Under the pieces are notes generated by a model, which saw only the letters and a program-made list of their open reading frames with translations, had not been told where the DNA came from and made no database searches. Both the position numbers and the translations under genes were made by a program. A stretch of DNA of 64,000 nt from Bremerella volcania (lineage in GTDB: Bacteria > Planctomycetota > Planctomycetia > Pirellulales > Pirellulaceae): contig NZ_CP036289.1 of NCBI RefSeq assembly GCF_007748115.1, forward strand, positions 5,146,001 through 5,210,000, written 5' to 3'. Shown here one piece after another: positions 5,609 to 61,985 of the stretch (within the stretch, counting starts at the first letter, position 1; each line of letters begins with the position of its first letter).

Positions 5609-6334
5609 TCAACTTAGGTCGGCCAGAAGCCGCTCGGCCACGGCCAGATCCTCCTTGGTGGTGATCTTCAGATTCTTCATCCCACCGCGAACCACCGACA
5701 CCTGGTGCCCCAGGCGTTCGACCAGGCTGGCATCGTCGGTGGCAGGCTCACGACGAAACTTATCGTACGCCTCGAGAATCAACTGCCGCCGGAAGACCTG
5801 GGGAGTTTGCGCCTCCCAGATCCCTTCGCGAGGAACCGTTTCGACGATCTTCCCTTCGATCGAAACGCGTTTGAGCGTGCCTGGTACCGGCAAAGCAAGG
5901 ATCGCGGCCCCGCTGCCTGCTGCGCTGTTGAATACCGCGTCGATCATTGCGTCGTCGATGCCAGGCCGGGCCGCATCGTGAATGGCGATGAACTCGCTAA
6001 GGGAGTCCAACGCGTCGATTCCATGGGCGATCGAGTCGGTGCGGGTTTCTCCTCCCAAAACGATCTGAATGCCTAGCTCATCACAGACGCCACCGAACTG
6101 TTCGCGGAAGTACGACTCGTCATCCTGAGAAATGACGATGACCACGCCACTCACGTCAGGCCGCGCGGCAAACCGCCTGGCACTGTGCAGCCAGACTGGC
6201 TGGCCGAGTAGCGGCACATAGACTTTCTTCAGCTGGCCGCCGCCGAAACGAGTACTACGGCCGGCGGCAGGTAGAATGACACTGAATTTGATCAACGATG
6301 CGGTCCTTTCAAGTAACGAGTCGTTACTTATCAT
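5609..6334 (-). CDS. ispD: 2-C-methyl-D-erythritol 4-phosphate cytidylyltransferase
   Basis: A 241-aa cytoplasmic enzyme of the MEP isoprenoid pathway that couples CTP to methylerythritol 4-phosphate. The N-terminus carries the nucleotide-binding loop [15 protein letters not shown] followed by [22 protein letters not shown] and [11 protein letters not shown] mark the CTP and substrate pocket, and the C-terminal TDDASLVE and [10 protein letters not shown] elements complete the family pattern. Length fits the family. The ATG at 6334 overlaps the end of the acyl-CoA dehydrogenase gene by 11 bp, which implies translational coupling and places a housekeeping isoprenoid gene at the end of a beta-oxidation transcript. 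Confidence 0.95.
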
Positions 6335-8249
6335 ACCGCATCAGGATTTCGTCTGGGGGAGCGCTGACGCCAGGAAAGTTTCCTTCGGCGACCATTCCCC
6401 CCACTTCCGACACGCGACGGAAGTAGCGATCGCTCGGCCGGGTGAGCAGAATCTTCCGCTTCAAATCGCGACAAGCAATATCGGCCGCGGCGCGGATCGT
6501 TTCGTTCTCTTGCTTCGCCGCATACAGCGCGGTGCACAGAATCGTCATCAGGTCCTGCACGTTTGAGGACAGGTACGACATGCGGCACTGACGGTCTGCC
6601 AGCTTCAGTTGATGCTTCCGCATCGTGCCGGAGATATGCAGCGGCATGTCTTGCAGGCGATCGGCCGCGAACTGGGCGTGGGCCTTCAGGTCTTCTGGCA
6701 TCTGCGGGAACTTCGGCCGCGGCTTGCCTCCCATGTATTCCTTCATCATCCAGCTGGCATACGGAGCCAAAGCCCCCTTGAGCGCCCAGGCATGAGCCGG
6801 ATTCAGCGGGTTGGGCTTCTTAATGCCGGCTTCGTGCAGGGCCTTGCCGATCGGCTCGAAGAACTGCGTGCCGTGCTTCTTCACCAGCGACTTGAAGAAC
6901 GCCATGCCGAGCATCTCCCCTTCCCCTTCGTAGATGCAAGGAGCGAGGTACTCGTGGACGTTGTCGCCAAACATGTGCCCGTGCAGGAACGAACGTCCGC
7001 CGTGCGTTTTCATGAACAGTTCGATCGCCGCTTCCTTCTGCGATTCGCTCCCGAAAATCTTGGCAATGATGCATTCCATCTCGCCGCGGTAGCCAGCATC
7101 GATCAGCGTGCTGCACCAGGCCACCAGGGCATCCGAAGCGACGATCATTCCGGCGAGCTTACCCAAGCGGCGCTGCACCAGTTCTCGCTTGGCGATCGGC
7201 TCGCCATACGTTTCGCGGAAATGAACCCACGGAATCATGCTGGCCATCATCAGACGCATCGTACCGGCCGCGTTGGCACATAGGCTGATGCGGCCGAGGT
7301 TGAGCCCGTGATAGGCGATCGTCAGACCATTTCCCTTACCCGGCAGCAGCAAGTTCTCTTTTGGCACGCGAAAGTCTTTGAAGATGATGCCCTGGTTGTA
7401 GGTATGCTTGAGGGCCCAAATGCCGTACTTTCGCAGCTGGAAGTTATCGTTCTCCTCCGGCGGTAGATCGACGACCAGCACCGCCGGCACCTGGTCGATC
7501 AAACAGACCACGCCGATCGTTCGCCCTGGCACCACGTTGGTGATGAAGAGCTTCTCACCATTGAGCACGTAACTGTCGCCATCGAGCTTGGCCGTCGTTC
7601 GCAGCGCGGTCAGGTCAGAACCGGCACACGGTTCGGTAAGCGCGAACGCCGAGAGCTTCTCGCCGCTGGCCAGCTTCGGCAGATAGCGCTGCTTCTGCTC
7701 TTCGTTGCCAAAAGTGCTGACCGGATCGACCGCCCCAATACAGCCGTGGACCGAAGCCAGGCCGGCGAGGGTCGGATCGACCATCGCCATCTCGGTCAGA
7801 AAAGGGGCGAACGCACGAAATGGCGTGCCGCTACCGCCGTACTTTTTATCGACCAGCAACCCCCAATAGCCTGCATCGGCGAGCCCTTGAAAGACCTCGT
7901 CGCGGATCTTTCCTTTCTCGTCGGTGATGGTTTTGCTCTTGCGAAAGCCGCGCACGACCTCCAGGCTGTCATCCATCACCTTGCGGATTTCCGGCGGCGC
8001 TGCAATCGGATCGGCTTCGAACAGCTCGACCGGAATACCACGATCCCACACGGCGCGATGCGCTGGGCTGTTGGCCGTTTGATACTCCGGCTGAAAGAGC
8101 TTCTCGACTTGATCGTCGGCGGAATCGATCGCCCCGGTGCGCCGTGCTTCGTCTTCGCTTTTACCACCGAGCTTGAGGGCCGTTTCGGCGAACGAAATTT
8201 CTTCCGGCTTGTCATCCGAAACCGATGGATTGGTCGTGTCACTGCTCAT
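6324..8249 (-). CDS. Acyl-CoA dehydrogenase, long form
   Basis: A 641-aa FAD enzyme that oxidises acyl-CoA to trans-2-enoyl-CoA, the first step of beta-oxidation. The FAD/substrate signatures [17 protein letters not shown] and [10 protein letters not shown] lie near residues 200-230. The catalytic glutamate is probably in [10 protein letters not shown] near residue 440, where most relatives have YEG-T/S-NE. The protein has ~60 extra residues at the N-terminus and about 180 after the catalytic region. That two-part layout resembles very-long-chain (VLCAD/ACAD9-type) dehydrogenases rather than the 380-aa short form. AGGAG lies 9 nt before the ATG. It sits between the acyl-CoA ligase upstream and ispD downstream, which it overlaps by 11 bp. 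Confidence 0.92.
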
Positions 8250-38879: not shown

Positions 38880-39305
38880 ATGACCTGGATCCAAAAAGAA
38901 ATCATGCTCCGAGCGCGTTCGCGGGGTTTCCACCTGGTGACCCATGAAGTCGAACAGCAGCTGCCGGAACTGCGCGAAATCTCGGTCGGATTGCTGAATA
39001 TCTTTATCCAGCACACGTCAGCCAGCATTAGCATCAACGAGAACGCCGACCCGGACGTGCGCGTCGACCTGGAAATGGGCTTTTCGAAGATCGTCCCCGA
39101 GGATTTCCCTTACGTGCATACGATCGAGGGCCCCGACGACATGCCTGCCCACATCAAAGCGGCTATGATCGGCAACAGCCTGACCATTCCCATCACCGAC
39201 GGGCGCTTGAACCTGGGTACCTGGCAGGGGATCTATCTTTGCGAGCACCGCAACCGTGCTAGCGGTCGCCGTTTAGTGCTGACCATCCAAGGCGAACGCC
39301 GCTAG
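38880..39305 (+). CDS. YjbQ-family (UPF0047) protein
   Basis: A 141-aa protein of the YjbQ family; the family fold is known and some members have weak thiamine-phosphate synthase activity. Signature segments are present: LLNIFIQHTSASISINENAD, with the conserved His and Asn-Glu-Asn, EDFPYVHTIEGPDDMPAHIK and LNLGTWQGIYLCEHR. The His/Glu/Asp residues form the known metal or anion site. The start at ATG 38880 (MTWIQKEIML) gives the normal length; upstream frame residues are not family-like. The 3' end overlaps the convergent macro-domain gene by 4 bp. Confidence 0.93.
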   Translation: MTWIQKEIMLRARSRGFHLVTHEVEQQLPELREISVGLLNIFIQHTSASISINENADPDVRVDLEMGFSKIVPEDFPYVHTIEGPDDMPAHIKAAMIGNSLTIPITDGRLNLGTWQGIYLCEHRNRASGRRLVLTIQGERR

Positions 39306-39922
39306 TGCTTCACGACCTGTTGCTTGCCGTCGTAGCAGATCCCTTTTTGCCGGCTGATGACCCAGTCCCAGTCCAGGCGATGGGGTGGATTGAGGAAATG
39401 GCGATAGGCAGCAGCCATTTGCCGGGCAACTTCCGAATAAGCCACACCCCCGAAACCGGCACCAAACGCTGGGAAAGCAATCGTTTCGATCTTCTCAGCG
39501 TTTGAGGCATTATGGTTGTAAACGGCCAGAAACGCTGCCCAGGTCGCCGCATAGATCTTATCAGTTCCATCGATTCCACCAGGCACCCGCATCGTGGGAG
39601 CGTGGCAGACATAGGGGATGGCCGGGTGCTCGGTTTCGACGAGAAACGCTGTTCCGACCGGCTGCTCGCCGAGATACTCGTTCATGATCCGGAACTGAAC
39701 TCGCTCCATTAGTTGTTCACCGAAATAGCGAACCACTGCGGCATCGATCCCGGCACTCATGATTCCGAAAGAGTTTGCCGCGGTCACAAAACAGTCGTGA
39801 GGCGGAAGGTCTTCAAAGTAAGTGGCGAAGACTTGGACGTTTGGCAAATCAGCAAACCGCTCGCGAAATGCCTGGCACATTTGCTCGTCGGGATGGACGA
39901 GCCACAGGTTAAGAGAATTCAT
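39302..39922 (-). CDS. Stand-alone macro-domain protein
   Basis: A 206-aa soluble protein that is one macro domain, the fold that binds or hydrolyses ADP-ribose derivatives. The N-terminal part has CFVTAANSFGIMSAGIDAAV, the substrate loop with the AAN motif and the following G.D. The phosphate-binding loop is IAFPAFGAGFGGVAYSEVA near residue 165. Between them lies MRVPGGIDGTDKIYAATWAA. It resembles the phage-type/Poa1p-like macro branch more than MacroD. No signal peptide. Its 3' end overlaps yjbQ by 4 bp, and a divergent partner is absent, so context does not reveal the substrate. Confidence 0.88.
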   Translation of the reverse strand: MNSLNLWLVHPDEQMCQAFRERFADLPNVQVFATYFEDLPPHDCFVTAANSFGIMSAGIDAAVVRYFGEQLMERVQFRIMNEYLGEQPVGTAFLVETEHPAIPYVCHAPTMRVPGGIDGTDKIYAATWAAFLAVYNHNASNAEKIETIAFPAFGAGFGGVAYSEVARQMAAAYRHFLNPPHRLDWDWVISRQKGICYDGKQQVVKH

Positions 39923-42542: not shown

Positions 42543-42702
42543 GAAACTTTCCTTTCGTTGTCAACTTTTTTTGCCTGATGCGGATAACCCTATCAAGGCA
42601 TTTTTGCTTGTCTGGCGGCAAGGGGGATAGTAACGATTGGTACGGAGGCATTTAAGCCGTAAAATGTGGCGATCGACCCAATCTTCGAACTCTTGTAATG
42701 TT

Positions 42703-44904
42703 ATGAGCCTGGACGAAACGCAACGACAAACTCCGGGGCAGCTAAGTGCGGCGAAACATTTGAGCCGCCCCAAGGGACGCCCCCCTTGCGACATACCTGG
42801 CTACGACATGGATTCGTTGCTGGGGCGAGGAGCCTATGGCGAGGTCTGGGTCGCCACCGACCAAAACACAGGCCGCCGGGTCGCCATCAAAATCTACCAC
42901 CATCGTGGGGCCCTGGACGAAAGCCTGATCGCGGCGGAAGTCGAAAAGCTCGTCTTCCTCTCGGCCGATCGCTACGTGGTCCAATTGCTGGAAGTAGGTT
43001 GGAACGCGGAACCTCCCTACTATGTCATGGAATATCTCCCCAATGGTTCGCTGGAAGATCTCCTGCGGCGGGGTGGAGCCATGGATGTCGAGGACGCGAT
43101 CCAAAAATTCAAGGACGTGGTCATTGGTCTGTTGCATGCACATGGGAAAGGCATTTTCCATTGTGATCTGAAGCCGGCCAATATCCTACTCGATCAAGAT
43201 GGCAAGGCTCGCATTGCCGACTTCGGCCAATCGCGGCTCTCGAACGATCAGCGGCCGGCCCTGGGCACATTGTTCTTCATGGCCCCGGAACAAGCCGACA
43301 TCGAGGCCTCGCCAGACGTCCGCTGGGATGTCTACGCGCTGGGGGCACTGCTCTATACGATGCTCGTCGGGGAGCCTCCGTTTCGCTCTTCTTCCAGTGT
43401 CGGACAAATTGACTCGACGTCCGGGCTGCGCGATCGACTGGAAAAATACCGCCATGTGATCGCGATTTCTCCTCCACCAGACGCGCACAAAAAGATACGA
43501 GGGATCGACCGAGAACTGATCCAGATCATCGATCGGGCCATCGCCGTCAACCCGCGCGAGCGATATCGCAACGTTCAGGAAATCTTCGATGCGCTCAATG
43601 AGCGCGAACGCAATCGTTACCGTCGCCCGTTGATCATGCTGGGGATCCTGGGCCCGGCGATTTTGCTGACCATTGGCTTGTTCTTCGGCTGGCAGAACTA
43701 CAAGGCCGTCATGCGCACCAGCGAAAACGCCATGATTGCCAAGACGTACGAAAGCAACCGATTCGCTGCCGAGTTGGCGGCAACTAACGTTTCCAATGCG
43801 ATCGAAGACCGATTCAAAGAGGTGGAGCGTCTCGCGGCCGATCCCGAGTTCATTGACCTTTACTTAAACACGATCGACGATCCGCAGCTGAGTGAGCTAC
43901 TGGATAAGCTTCATGCGGAACGGGCCACCGGATCGAACCAAACGCCAGAACGTCTCGCGTTTCAATCGCATCCAAAACGACAGCCCCTGCAGCAGCGGAT
44001 CCGCGCCCAGTTCGAGCTTCCTTCGCAGAAGAATACGGCCAGTTGGTTCGTGACTGATGCCCAGGGATTCCATATCGCCTCGTCGTTCGACTCGGATCCA
44101 TCTGTCTCGCCAATTGGGGGCTATTTCGGCTATCGAACGTATTTCCAAGGGGGTAGCTCCGATCTCGCGCCGACCGATCCCACCCCCAAGCCGATTCAAG
44201 ATACGCACCTCTCGGCAGTGTTTCTCAGCACGGCCTCTGGCACATGGAAGGTCGCCATGTCGACCCCCCTGCGTTCTCAGGGGAAAGTCGTGGGGATCGT
44301 GGCCATGTCGATTGACGTGGGCAAGTTCACGAGTCTCGATCCGGCCGAACATCAGTTTGCGGTGCTGGTCGATGGACGCGATGCCCCCACGCAAGGCGTC
44401 ATCCTGCAGCATCCCCTGTTCGACAAGCTGCTTGAAGGGGGCGATATCGTTCCGATCCGCTTCTCGGAAGAGGACAAGTACCGCGTGAAGCTCGGCAAGT
44501 TTGAAGCCGGGGTTCCAGTCGTTGGCCAGGACCCCATCGGCCGCGACGAGTTAGGAAAAGAGTACGACAAATCGTGGATCTTCGCCGCCAAGCGTGTGTC
44601 GCTCCCTCATCGAAGTCAAAAAAACGAAGACGACCCGGGAGACACCGGCCTGGTGGTCGTGGTGCAGGAAGACCATCGATTCGCGGTGAAACCGATCTAC
44701 GAGCTTGGCGATCAACTTTCGCGCCAGGCAATCCTGGCTGCCAGCCTGATTATTCTCGTGGTCCTGACGCTATGGTATTTTGTGGTAAGGGCTCTGCGTC
44801 GCGTGAAAGTCGGAGCCATGGCCATCGGCGACACAAGCAGTGTTATTCCACCGCATGAATTGACGACCATCATCGCGCCGGCCAAGACGGGTACCAAATC
44901 ATAA
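42703..44904 (+). CDS. Transmembrane Ser/Thr protein kinase with extracytoplasmic sensor
   Basis: A 733-aa receptor-like kinase. The N-terminal kinase domain (residues ~33-305) has the P-loop LLGRGAYGEVWVA, the Lys in VAIKIYHH, the catalytic loop HCDLKPANILL, DFGQSRLS and APEQADIEASPDVRWDVYALG. The Arg of the usual HRD motif is Cys, making it a non-RD-type kinase. A helix at ~312-334 crosses the membrane. The following ~340 residues form a sensor, with a fold like a dCache domain (GGYFGYRTYFQGG, KVAMSTPLRSQGKVVGIVAMSIDV). A second helix lies at ~675-697, with a short basic end. The FHA-cyclase gene starts 13 bp later, strongly suggesting one signalling unit. Confidence 0.92.
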   Translation: MSLDETQRQTPGQLSAAKHLSRPKGRPPCDIPGYDMDSLLGRGAYGEVWVATDQNTGRRVAIKIYHHRGALDESLIAAEVEKLVFLSADRYVVQLLEVGWNAEPPYYVMEYLPNGSLEDLLRRGGAMDVEDAIQKFKDVVIGLLHAHGKGIFHCDLKPANILLDQDGKARIADFGQSRLSNDQRPALGTLFFMAPEQADIEASPDVRWDVYALGALLYTMLVGEPPFRSSSSVGQIDSTSGLRDRLEKYRHVIAISPPPDAHKKIRGIDRELIQIIDRAIAVNPRERYRNVQEIFDALNERERNRYRRPLIMLGILGPAILLTIGLFFGWQNYKAVMRTSENAMIAKTYESNRFAAELAATNVSNAIEDRFKEVERLAADPEFIDLYLNTIDDPQLSELLDKLHAERATGSNQTPERLAFQSHPKRQPLQQRIRAQFELPSQKNTASWFVTDAQGFHIASSFDSDPSVSPIGGYFGYRTYFQGGSSDLAPTDPTPKPIQDTHLSAVFLSTASGTWKVAMSTPLRSQGKVVGIVAMSIDVGKFTSLDPAEHQFAVLVDGRDAPTQGVILQHPLFDKLLEGGDIVPIRFSEEDKYRVKLGKFEAGVPVVGQDPIGRDELGKEYDKSWIFAAKRVSLPHRSQKNEDDPGDTGLVVVVQEDHRFAVKPIYELGDQLSRQAILAASLIILVVLTLWYFVVRALRRVKVGAMAIGDTSSVIPPHELTTIIAPAKTGTKS

Positions 44905-44917
44905 ATCAGGGGCCAGA

Positions 44918-46660
44918 ATGGCTGAATTGTTCGCCCGAGACACGCTCTCCTCGCAGCGATGGCGTCGACGATTGGTTCCCAATCAGCCATTTGTCCTGGG
45001 ACGTACGACCCCCAAATTCCCGATTGGCTGGGACAAGCAAATCTCTTCCAAGCACGCTCAGCTGAACTGGAACGGCGTGCAGCTGGAAATCCGCAAGTTT
45101 GAAGAAGCGGCCAATCCCATCTTCTTCGACTCACGTCCGCGGATCTCGTTCATGCTCGATCCAGGCCAGCACTTCGTGATCGGGCATACCGAATTCCTGC
45201 TGGAAGACTCCGAGCCGACGATGCCGCTGCCCCATCGCAGTCCTCGCACGGAAGTCACGATTCGCCCGGAAGAGATCCGCCGCACCTCCTTCCGGAAGAC
45301 GCCTGGCCGTATCGAACTGTTGACCGAGTTGGTCTCGAAGATGACCGCTTCGACCGACCACGACCAGCTGATTACCATCACCCTGCAGCAGCTCTTGCAT
45401 GGGATACCCCACGCGACCGACGTCCAGTTGCTCGAGCAAACGAAATACGAGAACTCGCAGAGCTTCACGCCGATTGCCTGGGATAGCCGCGACGGTGTCT
45501 CGACGCCCGGCGGATCGAGCCAAAGCCTGATCGAAAACGCCACCAGCTCAGAGATGTGCGTGTTGCATGTCTGGCCCAACGAACCTGATCCGGCCGATGC
45601 TAACTTCACGCAAATCGCCGGGCACGATTGGGCGATGTGTATTCCGCTGGAGATCAAGCTGCATCAGGTGGCGGCGCTGTACATCTCGGGCAAGCGAGCA
45701 CGGCTTGAGGGAAATCTGACCGAGGTCGAGATCCTGCAGGACGACATTAAGTTTGCCGAACTGGTCGGCTCGACGTTCGCCAACCTTTCGCGCAACATGG
45801 CTCTGGAGCGCCGGCAGTCACAGCTGAATCAGTTCTTTACGCCGGGCCTTCTGGATCATGTTTCGAGCGATATCGATAGTTACCTGGCTCCGCGCGAGGC
45901 GGGACTGATGGTCCTGTTTTGCGATCTGCGGGGCTTCTCGGCCGCGACCGAAGAGAACATCGACCGGCTGATTCCTTACCTGCATCAGACTAGCGAAACG
46001 CTTTCGATCATTACCTCGGCAATCCTGGCCCAACAGGGAGTCATTGGCGACTTCCATGGAGACGCGGTGATGGGCTTTTGGGGCTGGCCGGTGGCAGCAT
46101 CCGAAAACCCCCTGGGCTGCATCCAAGCTGCCTGGGAAATCGTCCAGGCATTGGCCGGAACCGAATTCCTCTGCAGCGAGGCGCCTGCCAAAGCCGGCAT
46201 TGGCATCGCCGCCGGCCAGGCCGTCGCGGGCATGATCGGAAGTCGCGATCAAGTCAAAGTGACCGCGTTTGGTCCTCCGGTAAACCTGGCATCGCGAATT
46301 GAAGGAATGACCAAACATCTGGGCATTCCCCTTCTGTTAGACGAACAGGCCGTCACCCAGTTGCAGAGCCATCCGTCGATGCCTCCCAATACGTTCTTAC
46401 GCCTGGGAAGCTTTCGCTTGTCGGGGCTGCGTCAGGCGACGCAGCTATTCACGGTCAATTCCGGCGAACTCACCTGGCTGCCGATGTTCTCGCAGGCACT
46501 CATCCAGTTCGAGGAAGGGCACTGGGCTCAAGCGATTCCGATGCTCGAATCGCTTCCCGCACCGTTTGGTCCCAGAAACCTCCTATTGCAGTTCGTGCAA
46601 GAACACGAGAACCGCTGCCCAACTGACTGGAACGGCACGATCCACCGGCACACCAAGTAG
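44918..46660 (+). CDS. FHA-GAF-class III nucleotide cyclase
   Basis: A 580-aa cytoplasmic protein. Residues ~20-95 are an FHA domain ([20 protein letters not shown]), which binds phospho-threonine peptides. Residues ~125-300 resemble a GAF sensor domain. Residues ~325-510 are a class III adenylate/guanylate cyclase catalytic domain: [12 protein letters not shown] supplies the metal Asp, [16 protein letters not shown] the second Asp, and [19 protein letters not shown] the Asn/Arg pair. The position that is usually Lys in the 'dKf.GD' motif is Asp here, so base specificity is unclear. Its place 13 bp behind a kinase suggests that kinase activity controls the cyclase through FHA. Confidence 0.93.
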
Positions 46661-56103: not shown

Positions 56104-57390
56104 GTGAGTACAATCCCTCCAGAATCTTATGAGGCTCGATCCGCGACGGATCGGGCCTTCTTGCTTTACCAGCGGGCAGTCCCCTTCTTTCTTCTTATCC
56201 TGGTCGCCGTGACCTATCCCTTGTGGATCGATCAGACCGCATTCCCAGCAGTTCCGATTATTGCCGAGCTATGCCCTGTCCCAGGCTTGGTCGACATCCT
56301 GCTGTTGGCAACCCTCACTGCGATCTTGATGACCGTTCAGATTATCGGGCCTCAATCGCCGAAGGCTTCCGCGCCGTGGATCGCTTGCTCCATCATTCTG
56401 GTGCTCTGCTTCTGTCTGAATCAACATCGCTTCCAACCATGGGCCTATCAATTCGCTGTATTGGGATTTATCTTTGGCTTGGCCCCACCCAGAAATGCCC
56501 GGCAAATGGCAATGTGGATCTCGCTGAGCATCTATTTCTACTCGGCGCTCTCCAAGCTAAACCCTTCGTTCGTCAACGAACTGGGCTCGGACTTCCTGGT
56601 GACCTTCAGCTCGATCGGGGGCATGTCGTTGTCCCCCGATCAACTGGCAGCCTGGAAGTGGTTGGCACTTGGATTCCCGCTGTTTGAACTGCTGGCGTTC
56701 GTCCTGCTGTTGATGCCGCGAACGAGAAAGCTCGGCGTGGTCGCGGCGTGCATGATGCATGTCGGCCTGATCGTGGTGCTGGGTCCGCTGGGCCTCTCCC
56801 ACAGTTGGGGCGTGCTGCTGTGGAACGTCTTCTTCTTCACCCAGGCCATCCTCCTGTTTGGCTTTTCCGAACCAGCCCAGGAAGAAGAAACAGCACCGGC
56901 AGGCACCGCTGGCCTGCGTGTCGCGCAAGTCATCTGCGGCTGCGTGATCCTCTTCCCGACGCTCGAACTGGTAGGGCTCGGCGATCCTTGGCCAGCCTGG
57001 GGACTGTATGCTTCGCACGTCGGTCGAACGCACCTTTTCCTTTCCCGACATGCCGTCGATCGTCTGCCAGAGCCACTGCGAGCGTACGTCGACACCGAAT
57101 CGTCCGACGACTTGTTCGTTCCGTTCCGCTTGGAACAGTGGTCGCTCGAGACGACCGGGGCCCCCATTTACCCGGGTCAACGTTTCTCGCTCGCCGCGGC
57201 ACGTGCGCTGGTCAACAAAACCGATACGGCCAGCGCCGCGCGACTAGTCCTCGAGTCTCCCGCTGGTCGGCTTCAAGACGACCGGGAAGCCGACACGTTC
57301 TCCGGGGACAAAATCGCCATGGAAGCCGATCGACGTTTCTGGCTGAACACCAAGCCGCGGGATGCGTTCCTGCAGGATCGAGATCGCTAA
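56104..57390 (+). CDS. MauE/DoxX/HTTM-like membrane protein of the ABC operon
   Basis: A 428-aa protein from GTG 56104, 11 bp after the preceding stop, so part of the operon. The first ~270 residues contain about eight membrane helices with LNQHRFQPWAYQFAVLGFIF, ISLSIYFYSALSKL and AACMMHVGLIVVLGPLGLSH. These line up with the same segments of the protein at 25190-26662 and define a shared domain of DoxX/MauE/HTTM type. The C-terminal ~150 residues are soluble and differ from that protein: no leucine-rich repeats. The neighbours suggest a role in export or envelope chemistry. Its end overlaps the convergent methyltransferase gene by 4 bp. Confidence 0.82.
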   Translation: MSTIPPESYEARSATDRAFLLYQRAVPFFLLILVAVTYPLWIDQTAFPAVPIIAELCPVPGLVDILLLATLTAILMTVQIIGPQSPKASAPWIACSIILVLCFCLNQHRFQPWAYQFAVLGFIFGLAPPRNARQMAMWISLSIYFYSALSKLNPSFVNELGSDFLVTFSSIGGMSLSPDQLAAWKWLALGFPLFELLAFVLLLMPRTRKLGVVAACMMHVGLIVVLGPLGLSHSWGVLLWNVFFFTQAILLFGFSEPAQEEETAPAGTAGLRVAQVICGCVILFPTLELVGLGDPWPAWGLYASHVGRTHLFLSRHAVDRLPEPLRAYVDTESSDDLFVPFRLEQWSLETTGAPIYPGQRFSLAAARALVNKTDTASAARLVLESPAGRLQDDREADTFSGDKIAMEADRRFWLNTKPRDAFLQDRDR

Positions 57391-58058
57391 TTCTTTTGGC
57401 CTGCGAACAGCGCCACCGAGCCGACCTGCTCGATCTCAACATTCGTTAAACAGGTTTCGAGCACTTCCCGGAGCGAGGCCTCTGTATCGTGCTCGTTGCC
57501 AAAGATTCCTTTCCGGTTATACGAGGCCATCACATGCCGTCCCAACCATGAACTGGGACCCGGCTGCCCCAAGATGGTCGCGCCGAAGAGCTTGCCATCT
57601 GCCTCTAAAGCGGCACTGGCGTGCTGAATGACTCGCTTGCGAAACTCGGGATCGCCTGGCAAGCAGTGCAGCACATACATCAGCGAAACCGACGAGAACT
57701 GGGCCATTGCCTCCTTAAACGGCTCGGCCAGATTGGCCTCGTACGTTTCTGGCTTGTATCGCTTTAACTGCTTGGCAGCGGCGGCCAGGCAGTTGGGGTT
57801 CGCATCCAACAGGCCGATCCGGGCATCATCGGAAAACACCGAACAGTGGTCGAGAAAGTAGCCGGTTCCCACGCCGATATCCAAATGATTGCTGGTCGCG
57901 TGCTCGTCGAACCAGGCGATCAACAGCTGCGTCGGGCAACTCCAGAACCAACGATTCGACACCCCATGCACGATCAAGTCGTACCACCGCAACAGTCGCG
58001 GCGTGTAGACCTGATGTCCGGAATGGATATCCCAATTGTCGGTGTTTACGGAAGCCAC
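57387..58058 (-). CDS. Class I SAM-dependent methyltransferase
   Basis: A 223-aa cytoplasmic protein from GTG 58058. The SAM-binding motif I is LDIGVGTGYFLDHC near residue 60, the acidic motif II end is IGLLDANPNCLAAA near 82, and motif IV-like SVSLMYVLHCLPGD lies near 125. The N-terminus opens with HSGHQVYTPRLLRWYDLIVHG, typical of a small group of uncharacterised methyltransferases. No substrate-binding domain is attached. It is convergent with the ABC operon (4-bp overlap) and transcribed divergently from the kinase-macro gene. Confidence 0.88.
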   Translation of the reverse strand: MASVNTDNWDIHSGHQVYTPRLLRWYDLIVHGVSNRWFWSCPTQLLIAWFDEHATSNHLDIGVGTGYFLDHCSVFSDDARIGLLDANPNCLAAAAKQLKRYKPETYEANLAEPFKEAMAQFSSVSLMYVLHCLPGDPEFRKRVIQHASAALEADGKLFGATILGQPGPSSWLGRHVMASYNRKGIFGNEHDTEASLREVLETCLTNVEIEQVGSVALFAGQKN

Positions 58059-58198: not shown

Positions 58199-60046
58199 AT
58201 GAAAGACGATACCACGAGGGGAGTCTGGTTCCCTTTGTATCAAGAATTCGTAGAGCGTTGGGCCGCGGACTCTCCGCCGGACCTGGGGAACTTCATATCC
58301 CGTGTTGCCCCGGACGAACGTTTTGATCTGTTTCGTCAGCTCATCATGCTTGATGTGTGCGAGCGACAGAAGCGCGGGCTCGAAGCAGGCAGGGCCTACT
58401 ACAGCGGTAAATTTCCCGAATTCCAACCCCTCATTGAAAACGTCTTTGAGCGCATCGTTGAGCAACTCGGCGAAACACGTGGGTCTGGCTCGTCCTCGCG
58501 CGATACCCATACGAACTTCTCGCTGGATCAAACCGCTTCCCACGGAGAGCCTCATGCCCAGCACCTTTGGGAAGCCTTGCAAGACTGTCAGGCTCATCCC
58601 AACGAAGTGATCGGGCTGCAAGCTGGCGAATACCAGTTCCTGGAACTGATCGCCCAAGGTGGCATGGGAACCGTTTACCGTGCTCGCCATCGGACGCTCG
58701 ACCGCCTGGCCGCCATCAAGCTGATGCGTCCCGAGGCATCGACCGATCGCTTCATTCGCGAAGCTAAACTCCTGGCCCGCATCCGCTCGCCCCACGTCGT
58801 TTCCGTCTACGACTTTTCGGTGCTTCCCAAGGGATCGCCCTTGATCGTGATGGAATGGATTGATGGCATCGATCTCAAACGCATCATCAAGGAAAGCTCC
58901 GAACTGATCTCGGAAGAAAAGATCGTCCAGTGGATGCAGCAGGTATGCGAAGGGATGAACGCCGCGGCGAAGTTGGGGGTGACCCATCGCGACGTGAAGC
59001 CCTCAAACATCCTGATCGACCGCGACGGCTACGCTCTGGTAGCCGACTTTGGCCTGGCCCGCAGCGGGATCTCGTCGACCGACTTCTCGATCTCCGGCAA
59101 CATGATGGGCACTCCGCTTTACATGGCGCCCGAGCAGGCCGAAGATCCCCGCAACGTCGACGTGCGTAGCGATATCTACGCATTCGGCGGAACGTTTTAC
59201 CACGCGGTGACCGGCAAGCCTCCGTTCGTCGGAGAGACGGCGTTCAGCATCTTGTTCAAACACAAGATGGAACCGATCGTTCCTCCCAAAACCCACAACC
59301 CGAACATCTCCGACCGCGTGAACGACATCATCGAACGCTGCCTGGCCAAGAGTCCACGGGACAGGTTCCAGTCATTCGACGAAATCCTCGTGCAACTGCG
59401 TGACCCGGCCGATAGCGTTTCGCCGTGGCAGTTCAGCGACAGCAAGATCCTCCAGTCGTTCCGGGCGATGTTCGAGGACCAGAAAGAAGATTACATCCGC
59501 AAACCTGAGAAGTTCATGCGGCCTGACCCATACTATTTGCCCAACGGCCGCCGCCTGGAAATCGTGTGCGGAGACGTCACCAAGCAGCATGTTGACGCCA
59601 TCGTCAGCTCGACTGACTGTCGACTTTCGCTCGATATGGGCCTGGCCAAAGCGGTCAGCGAAGCAGGCGGGCCGCTGATCGAGTTCGACGTGCGTAGGCT
59701 AGGCATCAACCGCGTGCCGCCAGGACGTGTCGTCGTGACGCCTGGCAGCGAACTACCGGCGCTATACGTCTTCCATTCGGTCACGCGCAGCGAAGTCACC
59801 GGCGTGACCCCAAGCCGCGACTTGATCTCTGAAATCGTTTCGAACTGCATGTACAACGCGACGACGCTCGGTATCGAATCGATCGCGTTCCCTTTGATCG
59901 GTACCGGCATCAGCCGATTCACGGCAGAGGTTTGCCTCGATACGCTCTTCCGCAATCTGGTCCGCCGACTTCTGTACGAGCCCACCAGCTTGAAGGTGGC
60001 CCGCATCGTCATCCGGCCCACGCAAGACAAAGAGCAAATCGTCTAG
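58199..60046 (+). CDS. Ser/Thr protein kinase fused to a C-terminal macro domain
   Basis: A 615-aa cytoplasmic protein with an uncommon domain pairing. Residues 1-~135 form the leader typical of planctomycete kinases (FPLYQEFVERWAADSPPDLG, YYSGKFPEF). The kinase (~145-405) is complete: LIAQGGMGTVYRARH, VAK-type Lys in AAIKLMRP, THRDVKPSNILI, DFGLARSG, GTPLYMAPEQAED. Residues ~450-605 are a macro domain: EIVCGDVTKQHVDAIVSSTD, then SLDMGLAKAVSEAGGPLIE and IESIAFPLIGTGISRFTAE. The usual N-A-N and GGGVAGAI residues are replaced by S-S-T-D and LDMGLAKA, so ADP-ribose hydrolysis is doubtful though binding may remain. It may let an ADP-ribose-type ligand steer kinase output. Confidence 0.9.
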   Translation: MKDDTTRGVWFPLYQEFVERWAADSPPDLGNFISRVAPDERFDLFRQLIMLDVCERQKRGLEAGRAYYSGKFPEFQPLIENVFERIVEQLGETRGSGSSSRDTHTNFSLDQTASHGEPHAQHLWEALQDCQAHPNEVIGLQAGEYQFLELIAQGGMGTVYRARHRTLDRLAAIKLMRPEASTDRFIREAKLLARIRSPHVVSVYDFSVLPKGSPLIVMEWIDGIDLKRIIKESSELISEEKIVQWMQQVCEGMNAAAKLGVTHRDVKPSNILIDRDGYALVADFGLARSGISSTDFSISGNMMGTPLYMAPEQAEDPRNVDVRSDIYAFGGTFYHAVTGKPPFVGETAFSILFKHKMEPIVPPKTHNPNISDRVNDIIERCLAKSPRDRFQSFDEILVQLRDPADSVSPWQFSDSKILQSFRAMFEDQKEDYIRKPEKFMRPDPYYLPNGRRLEIVCGDVTKQHVDAIVSSTDCRLSLDMGLAKAVSEAGGPLIEFDVRRLGINRVPPGRVVVTPGSELPALYVFHSVTRSEVTGVTPSRDLISEIVSNCMYNATTLGIESIAFPLIGTGISRFTAEVCLDTLFRNLVRRLLYEPTSLKVARIVIRPTQDKEQIV

Positions 60047-60179: not shown

Positions 60180-61985
60180 ATGGGTCTGTCCCCTGCGAAC
60201 CATCAGGTCCTCGAAAACGTGCAAGATTCGTCTCTCAATCCGAACACTACCGCGCCGCGATCCTGGTCGGCGTGGGCCATTGTCGCCGCAACGATGTTGG
60301 CAGCCGCCATCGCCGTCAGCCCCAATGGAGCCGATCCCGATTTGTGGGGGCACGTTCAATACGGACGAGACGCTCTGCAGGAAGGCCTGGCCCGCACGAC
60401 CACCTACAGCTACACCGCCAACGGCTACCGCTGGATCAATCACGAGAACCTCAGCGAGTTGGCCCTGGCGATCGGCGTCGACACGATCGGCCCCGCTGGT
60501 CTGCTGGTTCTCAAGACACTGCTGGGCCTGGCGATTTGCCTGGTGCCGTTCTGGAAAGCGAAAGACTTTGCCAAGAACCCGCTGCCGGTCGTCGTGGTCT
60601 CGCTGCTGATCGCGGTGAACCTGACCAATCATTGGAACGTTCGGCCGCAGCTGTTCAGCTTCGGGTTCTTCGCCCTGCTCTTGCTATTGATCGAATTCGC
60701 GTTCACCGGCTGGCAGGGGCACTGGAACTTGCCCTGGCTGACCTCGCTTCGCCGAGGTGAACCGGCCGACGCGCTGAGTTGGAATCACCGCTGGGTGAAG
60801 TTGATGTGGCTGGCCGTTCCGCTGTGCTTCCTATGGACCAACACCCACGGCGGCTTCATGGCGGGCGTCGGCGTTCTCTGCGTTTACCTGGCGTGCCGCA
60901 TGATCGAAGCCGCCACCATGCACCGGTGGAAGGCCTCCGGAATGCTACGCCGATTGGCGCTCATGATCGTCGTCGCACTCCTCGCCACACTGATCAATCC
61001 GTACAGCTTTGGGCTGCATCAATGGTTGCTCGCAGCCCTTGGCGAGCCGCGTCCCGAAATCACCGAATGGCACCCGCTTTACTCGCTCGACATGTTCAGC
61101 ATTGCGTTTGTGGCGATGGTGGGCGTGATCGTGTTGTCGCTCACGTTTTCTCGCAAACCGCTCGACTTCACGCAGATAGTCGTCTTGCTACTGGTCGCCG
61201 CGCAAGCCGTCATGCACCAGCGTCACGCCCCTTTTCTCGCCATGCTGTGCGGGTTCTGGGTCACGCCGCACGTGGTAAGTGTCTGGCAGCGCGTCATGCA
61301 GCGAGCCTACCAGAGCGAAAAGAGCCCTCACCCGGCCATTGCCTGGGGTGTGGTGGTGATCGGCGGAATGCTGTTTGCCTTGCCGATGTTTCATCGCCTG
61401 AGCGTGATGCCAGTCTACCGCGATACATACCCAGTCTCGGCGATGGAGTTCCTCGACGAGCACAACCTGCACGGCAAGACGATCGTTTCCTACAACTGGG
61501 CGCAGTATTTCATTGCGGCGCGCTGCAGCGCTGGCGACTCCAGCGTTCAGTTCGACGGGCGATTCCGCACCTGTTATCCGCAAGCGGTTGTCGATCGTCA
61601 TTTCGACTTCATCCTGGGTGACGAGCCTAGCATGCGAAATCGCAAACTCGCAGGCCCCGTCGATCCCACGGCCGCCCTGATCGAAGGAGACCCGAAGCTG
61701 GTTCTCTTGGATCGCGGCCAGCCTCATTCCGAACACGTGATGCAGGAAGTCACCGGCTGGACGCTTCTGTATCAAGATTCACTGGCACAAATCTGGGGAC
61801 GCAGCGACTTGTTCGACGAACCCCAGTCTCCCGAATACCTCGCCCCACAACAGCGTTCGATTTCGAATGCTGAGCAAATTGGCTATGTTGCCTGGCCTGC
61901 GATACCCAAGCATGACGGCAACAACCACCCATCATCGCACTTGGCCCGTGCCAACGGCACGACAACCACACGAGGGCAACCATGA
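60180..61985 (+). CDS. Polytopic membrane protein, GT-C-like
   Basis: A 601-aa protein with about ten membrane helices spread over residues 30-410 and a soluble C-terminal part. After the first helix comes GADPDLWGHVQYGRDAL, then HENLSELALAIGV. The 'DPDLW.H...G' motif followed by 'W..HE.L.E' is common in GT-C-type or PMT-like bacterial membrane proteins that handle lipid-linked sugars, with the Asp pair as the likely catalytic site. The gene overlaps the following glycosyltransferase by 4 bp, supporting a joint role in sugar transfer to lipid or protein at the membrane. No signal for a specific substrate. Confidence 0.75.
   Translation: MGLSPANHQVLENVQDSSLNPNTTAPRSWSAWAIVAATMLAAAIAVSPNGADPDLWGHVQYGRDALQEGLARTTTYSYTANGYRWINHENLSELALAIGVDTIGPAGLLVLKTLLGLAICLVPFWKAKDFAKNPLPVVVVSLLIAVNLTNHWNVRPQLFSFGFFALLLLLIEFAFTGWQGHWNLPWLTSLRRGEPADALSWNHRWVKLMWLAVPLCFLWTNTHGGFMAGVGVLCVYLACRMIEAATMHRWKASGMLRRLALMIVVALLATLINPYSFGLHQWLLAALGEPRPEITEWHPLYSLDMFSIAFVAMVGVIVLSLTFSRKPLDFTQIVVLLLVAAQAVMHQRHAPFLAMLCGFWVTPHVVSVWQRVMQRAYQSEKSPHPAIAWGVVVIGGMLFALPMFHRLSVMPVYRDTYPVSAMEFLDEHNLHGKTIVSYNWAQYFIAARCSAGDSSVQFDGRFRTCYPQAVVDRHFDFILGDEPSMRNRKLAGPVDPTAALIEGDPKLVLLDRGQPHSEHVMQEVTGWTLLYQDSLAQIWGRSDLFDEPQSPEYLAPQQRSISNAEQIGYVAWPAIPKHDGNNHPSSHLARANGTTTTRGQP

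Follow-up and report, generated by a model that had tools for sequence, protein, structure and literature searches.

The macro domains of macroH2A and PARP14 are non-catalytic binders, and those of the Thoeris protein ThsA, in which a macro receiver is joined to a transmembrane effector part, bind ADPR and IAD (PMC11204291). Macro domains are also mentioned among the many variable C-termini of a conflict system (PMC8195603), and Macro is named among NAD-linked domains (PMC7159879). Planctomycetes possess many Ser/Thr kinases (STKs), of which typically 70–80% contain transmembrane regions, and 105 accessory domain groups were distinguished in a survey of these kinases (PMC11032199). The adjacency of STK and ECF sigma factor genes is known as well, the EcfP/PknT and EcfK/PknS pairs being backed by experiment (PMC8999054, PMC13147305). 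A fusion of kinase and macro domain is not named in the titles or abstract openings of the macro domain and kinase literature that we found, and in the main text of the planctomycete kinase survey 'macro' occurs solely within 'macromolecules' (PMC11032199).

The gene described here lies in the window, i.e. the whole stretch of 64,000 nucleotides analyzed from the 6.5 Mb genome of Bremerella volcania, and encodes a kinase followed by a macro domain (Table 1). The best fold matches of the macro domain are macroH2A (7ny7) and the second macro domains of PARP9 and PARP14, but these are eukaryotic, share ~20–26% identity with it in the fold alignments, and no kinase fusion of them was found here. 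The closest bacterial sequence of solved structure, TTHA0132 (2dx6, E 1.5e-16), has the same core, but belongs to the standalone bacterial macro proteins, keeps NAAN and falls on the opposite side of the macro tree. ThsA differs in that its effector is transmembrane rather than a kinase; the ThsA_Macro profile scores below its cut-off on the window protein (12.2 bits vs 25, E 0.15), which also lacks the N-terminal transmembrane segments of ThsA (hydropathy at most 1.28). As in the PknS-EcfK and PknT-EcfP pairs and the planctomycete groups ECF59, 61, 62, and 217, an STK gene of this kind adjoins an ECF gene in a sister genus (g285). However, PknS is described as a transmembrane kinase, whereas the kinase-macro proteins carry a putative macro input and no transmembrane segments, and no sigma factor gene adjoins the one in the window.

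Table 1. Features of the kinase-macro gene and its neighbours (positions in the window).
Feature	Position	Strand	Basis or remark
Kinase-macro gene	58199..60046	+	Open frame, 615 codons plus stop; also one frame in G205, G327, G381
N-terminal region, residues 1–140	58199..58618	+	Without Pfam match
Hanks-type Ser/Thr kinase domain, residues 145–394	58631..59380	+	PF00069, E 1.1e-46
HRD catalytic triplet, residues 263–265	58985..58993	+	Translation and family alignment
Kinase-to-macro linker, residues 401–444	59399..59530	+	Read from translations
Macro domain, residues 445–615 as used here (Pfam core 469–580)	59531..60043	+	PF01661, AlphaFold, Foldseek
SSTD motif, residues 470–473, at NAAN position	59606..59617	+	D473 aligned with OiMacroD N30
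Phosphate-binding loop 2 PLIGTG, residues 565–570	59891..59908	+	G568 and G570 conserved in fused rows
Upstream neighbour, methyltransferase	57387..58058	-	Left flank of the site found empty in 5/9 genus genomes
Downstream neighbour, membrane-type protein (by reading)	60180..61985	+	No Pfam match; right flank of the same site

The kinase-macro protein

The initial annotation of this gene claimed a complete Hanks-type kinase followed by a macro domain, and both parts are borne out by Pfam, with a Pkinase match (Table 1) and a PF01661 match of 61.3 bits (cut-off 22; E 1.1e-16), each well above its threshold. The gene is present in four of the nine genomes of the window's genus (g1), and the three other copies (G205, G327, and G381) are single frames of 613–615 aa that are 94% identical over the full length. 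Among the four copies, dN/dS amounts to 0.019–0.037 for the macro part and 0.015–0.029 for the kinase, at dS values of ~0.8 to 1.4 that are hence partly saturated, and the gene is under strong purifying selection. A frameshift joining two separate genes, the error that the annotation had allowed for, or a chimaera is ruled out by these single-frame copies together with dN/dS of about 0.02–0.04 over the macro part.

All 20 members of the family described below hold the Lys, Glu, HRD, Asn, and DFG residues of Hanks-type kinases, K174, E188, H263, D265, N270, and D283 being identical throughout. In a hydropathy scan of 21 kinase-fused frames, including one duplicate and three cut short, no 19-residue window with a mean hydropathy of 1.6 was observed, the highest value being 1.57 (L103), and the simplest reading is that the kinase-macro proteins are cytosolic and soluble. 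No Pfam family matches the N-terminal residues 1–144 at E<=0.01; by reading, a similar stretch is present in three relatives (L103, L120, and L121) and absent from the others. The linker holds a SPW...Y..(R)R..Y-like pattern that, as read from the translations, is common to several relatives and is not seen in g285. Among the PADLOC matches listed (25 of 36), the best was PDLC04042 (E 5.6e-77), while nothing was found with the macro part alone. A defence kinase of the PD-T4-6 type was considered and rejected, the match being confined to the generic kinase domain (residues 142–406).

Fold and pocket of the macro domain

Searches with residues 418–615 against PDB sequences (phmmer) returned 59 distinct sequences at E<=1, with the macro domains of PARP14 (3vfq, 2.1e-21) ahead of TTHA0132. 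An AlphaFold model of residues 441–615, built on a six-sequence alignment, has a macro fold as the initial annotation predicted (mean pLDDT 81.3, pTM 0.81), and its best Foldseek match is macroH2A with ADP-ribose (7ny7, E 2.0e-14, TM 0.80). In the best 50 rows, 31 are macroH2A (including some carrier fusions), PARP9, or PARP14; ranks 1–19 are all macroH2A or PARP9, and the hydrolase OiMacroD appears from rank 20. A chance match to the macro domain is ruled out by the Pfam, phmmer, and Foldseek results. Inside the model, confidence is lowest (pLDDT <50) in the loop directly following SSTD (model residues 34–40, protein residues 474–480), so that the model does not show the pocket. A model of the full-length protein (pLDDT 56.5) was too poor to use, including for contacts between kinase and macro domain, and was discarded.

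For the sequence comparison, 126 distinct macro rows were classed by sequence pattern as 21 kinase-fused, one TIR-fused, six CHAT-fused, and 98 other; one of the kinase-fused rows is a partial copy and was dropped, leaving 20. The underlying loci were picked as matches to the window or family profiles, and the sample is thus not random. At D459, the position of the adenine-contacting Asp, 17 of the 21 kinase- and TIR-fused rows have D (N in two, A and S in one each); D83 of ThsA, which contacts adenine, occupies the matching position, as does presumably the adenine-contacting Asp of Af1521. G481 and G568 are found in 21/21 of these rows and G570 in 20/21.

The window protein does have the SSTD and LDMGLAKA quoted in the initial annotation; the corresponding stretches of TTHA0132 are NAAN and GAGVAGAI. 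By sequence, this altered loop is a mark of the kinase-macro family and not of the window gene alone, since NAAN is absent in 20/20 kinase-fused rows, which have SSDD (eight, L172 by eye), VCDD (five), SSTD (four), SSDT (two), or SSTN (one). The TIR-fused row has SSDD and the CHAT-fused rows SSEN or NSEN, while 97 of the 98 other rows have N-x-x-N (95 by pattern, plus two with NAAN that the pattern did not read) and the remaining one, likewise missed by the pattern, HAIN. The window macro domain is itself derived at this loop, with LSLDM vs LSMGG in many relatives.

In OiMacroD, N30 and D40 bind the 2''-OH of the distal ribose, and kcat is 0.41 vs 0.48 per s for N30A and about a quarter, 0.11, for D40A (PMC5413906). 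The window protein has D473 and A483 in place of this Asn and Asp. Across the 21 fused rows, the N30 position holds D in 18, T in two, and N in one, and the D40 position A in 14 and S in seven; A or S at the latter is no mark of fusion, since 20 of 35 unfused macro rows have them too. The initial annotation took the altered loop to point to a sensor rather than a hydrolase. A sensor does seem the likelier role and a MacroD-type hydrolase unlikely, but the loop by itself goes less far than was claimed: as the single mutants of OiMacroD stay partly active, loss of residues of the N30 and D40 type would lower hydrolysis but not abolish it.

Distribution of the family

Searches across planctomycetes showed that the architecture is not unique to the window: the kinase-macro family comprises 20 proteins in 19 Planctomycetota genomes, three long macro frames (G065:C393, G178:C50, and G044:C123) being left out of the count. 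A Pfam scan of the window protein and seven relatives gave both Pkinase and Macro in each, and the other twelve members were assigned by the family profile where its frame also had both a motif and a match of a kinase. Bare co-occurrence of Pkinase and Macro may well be listed in the supplementary tables of the planctomycete kinase survey or in domain databases.

A profile built from seven macro domains (A2) matched 17 of the 241 genomes of the window's taxonomic family at E<=1e-15. Macro and kinase share one frame in 13 of these (four of genus g1, seven of g285, G707, and G839), and the remaining four have macro frames of 183–263 aa. Among 297 genomes covered class-wide, nine were matched at E<=1e-22, all with a kinase in frame, namely the four of the window's genus and G887, G902, G911, G919, and G1033, the last with two copies. 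Phylum-wide, 112 of 392 genomes matched a wider profile (A6) at E<=1e-22, and reading of 30 of these loci gave one further kinase fusion, in G158 (L172). With regard to long macro frames, a kinase in the macro frame was found in 0/20 loci of a first batch (among the matches listed) and in 3/12 loci of a second, all from g285.

A first scan of genome contigs gave no match, and a second gave L111–L115. Of these, L114, from a Bacteroidaceae MAG, encodes a protein in which a TIR domain comes after an SSDD-type macro domain (5950-7065, +; Macro E 5.7e-18, TIR_2 E 1e-20). Among 326 genomes drawn from its phylum, its own stands alone with a match of 9.6e-57, the next being 1.5e-33, and 59 genomes were matched at E<=1e-22; in the best 30 of the 59 loci, the 29 besides that of L114 have N-x-x-N domains and no kinase or TIR motif in frame. 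A kinase-macro-SpoIIE protein is encoded by a single frame of 777 aa in L123 (2906-5236, -), with the PP2C-type phosphatase-like SpoIIE part at the C-terminus. A phage or plasmid origin was rejected, as no related locus was found in viral contigs and no DNA match in phage records, and plasmid matches were weak, with 27 records for the window macro domain (at most 38% identity among the 25 listed) and 12 for that of L114 (none above 32%).

Phylogeny

The macro tree comprised 62 rows, i.e. 20 kinase-fused, one TIR-fused, and six CHAT-fused rows, 34 drawn at random from the 98 others, and TTHA0132. Nineteen of the 20 kinase-fused rows form one clade (100/96), while L172 and the TIR row L114, both on long branches, join each other, and all 21 lie on one side of a branch (100/93). 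A single clade of all 20 kinase-fused macro domains is compatible with the data (AU p 0.27) and is recovered once L114 is left out. In a kinase tree of 38 rows (20 from the family, 17 from the window's genome, and one from G1033), the same 19 form a clade (98/94) that could still be broken by adding kinases of other genomes, and L172 lies outside it at a place that is not settled. Since the same 19 form a clade in both trees, the two domains were probably fused long ago and passed on together; a second fusion event may account for L172. After removal of the four motif columns, a quick tree still requires three changes for the four groups, the minimum, with two instead of one for the unfused rows.

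Genomic context

In five of the nine genus genomes, the methyltransferase and membrane-protein genes that flank the window gene are adjacent, and the 4.7–4.8 kb read holds no kinase match. The site in these genomes is empty or emptied, and gain and loss fit alike. In g285, the gene order is kinase-macro, ECF sigma factor, and SSB in 7/7 genomes, with 0–2 bp from the stop codon of the kinase-macro gene to the ECF start where starts were taken (L082, L083, L084, and L130). The ECF proteins were identified as PF07638 by Pfam in L083, L082, and L130 and by similarity in the rest, and SSB by Pfam in L083. In the window's genus, the g285 sigma factors had no match at E<=1e-4 in the window or in L055–L058, and they had none in the loci read of other genera.

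In G839, ~485 bp separate a KptA gene from the kinase-macro gene. KptA as the maker of the ligand was rejected, with KptA matches in 9/19 genomes that have the family vs 9/15 that do not, one fragment in each group. One kinase-macro gene adjoins a gene (L122:5145-10001, +) for a kinase-nSTAND1-DUF4062-FGE-sulfatase protein, an architecture of the conflict-system type.

Proposed function

We propose, with a probability of roughly 0.6 for the reading as a whole, that these proteins are soluble Hanks-type Ser/Thr kinases whose C-terminal macro domain would receive an ADP-ribose-type ligand as input. As judged from the sequences and the fold model, the ligand is most likely ADP-ribose, either free or on a protein, or a derivative formed from NAD, and the macro domain would not turn it over in the MacroD manner. 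Binding would change the activity of the kinase or its partners, with output on Ser/Thr, and in g285 the ECF sigma factor of the next gene downstream is the most likely output. The domains, their fold, the intact kinase residues, the loss of both MacroD distal-ribose residues, the joint inheritance, and the sigma gene order of g285 are observed, and to these the reading adds a ligand class, a direction of control, and a substrate in the window's genus, which we infer. An ADP-ribose-type ligand is suggested by the fold and by the known macro proteins, among them ThsA, and since kinase and macro domain stay paired in the relatives with the binding motif altered, an NAD-derived molecule probably switches the kinase. 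Counted against this reading are the variation at D459, the presence of OiMacroD among the best 50 Foldseek rows, the derived loop of the window macro domain, and the DAED-type region of the linked g285 sigma factors, which is not clearly lost.

To our knowledge, the inputs of most planctomycete Ser/Thr kinases are unknown. A kinase with a macro domain offers a short and testable list of ligands, i.e. ADP-ribose and its relatives, and if the proposed function is true, NAD or ADP-ribose status would be linked directly to phosphorylation in a bacterium. Furthermore, the replacement of NAAN by SSDD throughout the family would make it possible to recognize, by sequence, macro domains whose role may be signal reception and not bond cleavage. 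Taken further, and more tentatively, the macro domains with SSDD for NAAN could be a subfamily in which an enzyme has turned into a signal receiver, plugged into kinases (in one case with a phosphatase-like SpoIIE domain added) and into a TIR protein. It would then be a cytosolic switch from an NAD-derived nucleotide to phosphorylation and, in one lineage, on to transcription through a sigma factor, and the added acids by the distal ribose would favour a ligand positively charged at this place, examples being NAD+, ADP-ribosyl-arginine, and ADP-ribose that bears an imidazole or histidine. We consider this wider scheme possible, though doubtful.

Alternatively, the macro domain might aim the kinase, holding ADP-ribosylated proteins or nucleic acids and bringing the kinase to them with no allosteric switch. 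The place of PARP9, PARP14, and macroH2A domains among the best structural relatives and a linker that varies from lineage to lineage would suit such an arrangement, whereas several relatives have a linker pattern in common, a hint of fixed geometry, and apart from the KptA of G839 no ADP-ribosyltransferase was noticed beside the gene (loci by reading, with selected neighbours scanned); we regard it as rather unlikely. It is less probable still that the macro domain receives an NAD-derived defence signal, like that of the Thoeris TM-macro ThsA, with the kinase as effector. The SSDD subtype is joined to TIR in L114, which shares one side of the supported branch with the kinase-fused rows, and one copy adjoins the kinase-nSTAND1-FGE gene of L122. 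However, the TIR link consists of one sequence on a long branch, neither the ThsA_Macro profile nor PADLOC recognizes the macro part, reading around the window copy and scans of three neighbours gave no TIR gene, and the setting in the genus is ordinary, with conserved genes on both sides. That the macro domain is an active eraser stripping ADP-ribose from the kinase or its targets agrees with the residual activity of OiMacroD N30A and D40A and with the presence of this enzyme in the best 50 fold matches, but is highly improbable with N absent at the N30 position in 20/21 and D absent at the D40 position in 21/21 fused rows, and with only macroH2A or PARP9 as the first 19 fold matches.

Other macro domain and kinase genes

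Several further genes were noted in the course of the analysis. A standalone macro gene of 206 aa (39302-39922, -; PF01661, 64.6 bits) lies ~19 kb from the kinase-macro gene and is the sole other PF01661 match in the window's genome at E<=0.001. In six planctomycete genomes (L035, L036, L037, L038, L039, and L043), the macro domain is followed in one frame by a CHAT-protease-like domain, identified with E 1.8e-24 in L038 and by motif in the other five. L086 (203-1846, +) encodes a DHH/DHHA1 phosphoesterase that carries a macro domain at its C-terminus (Macro E 8.8e-41), and in L088 and L089 a macro domain shares one frame with a C-terminal part that by eye is methyltransferase-like. Also by eye, a kinase whose C-terminal part is long (755 aa) is encoded in the window at 42637-46660 (+), with a protein resembling FHA plus class III cyclase (580 aa) directly after it.
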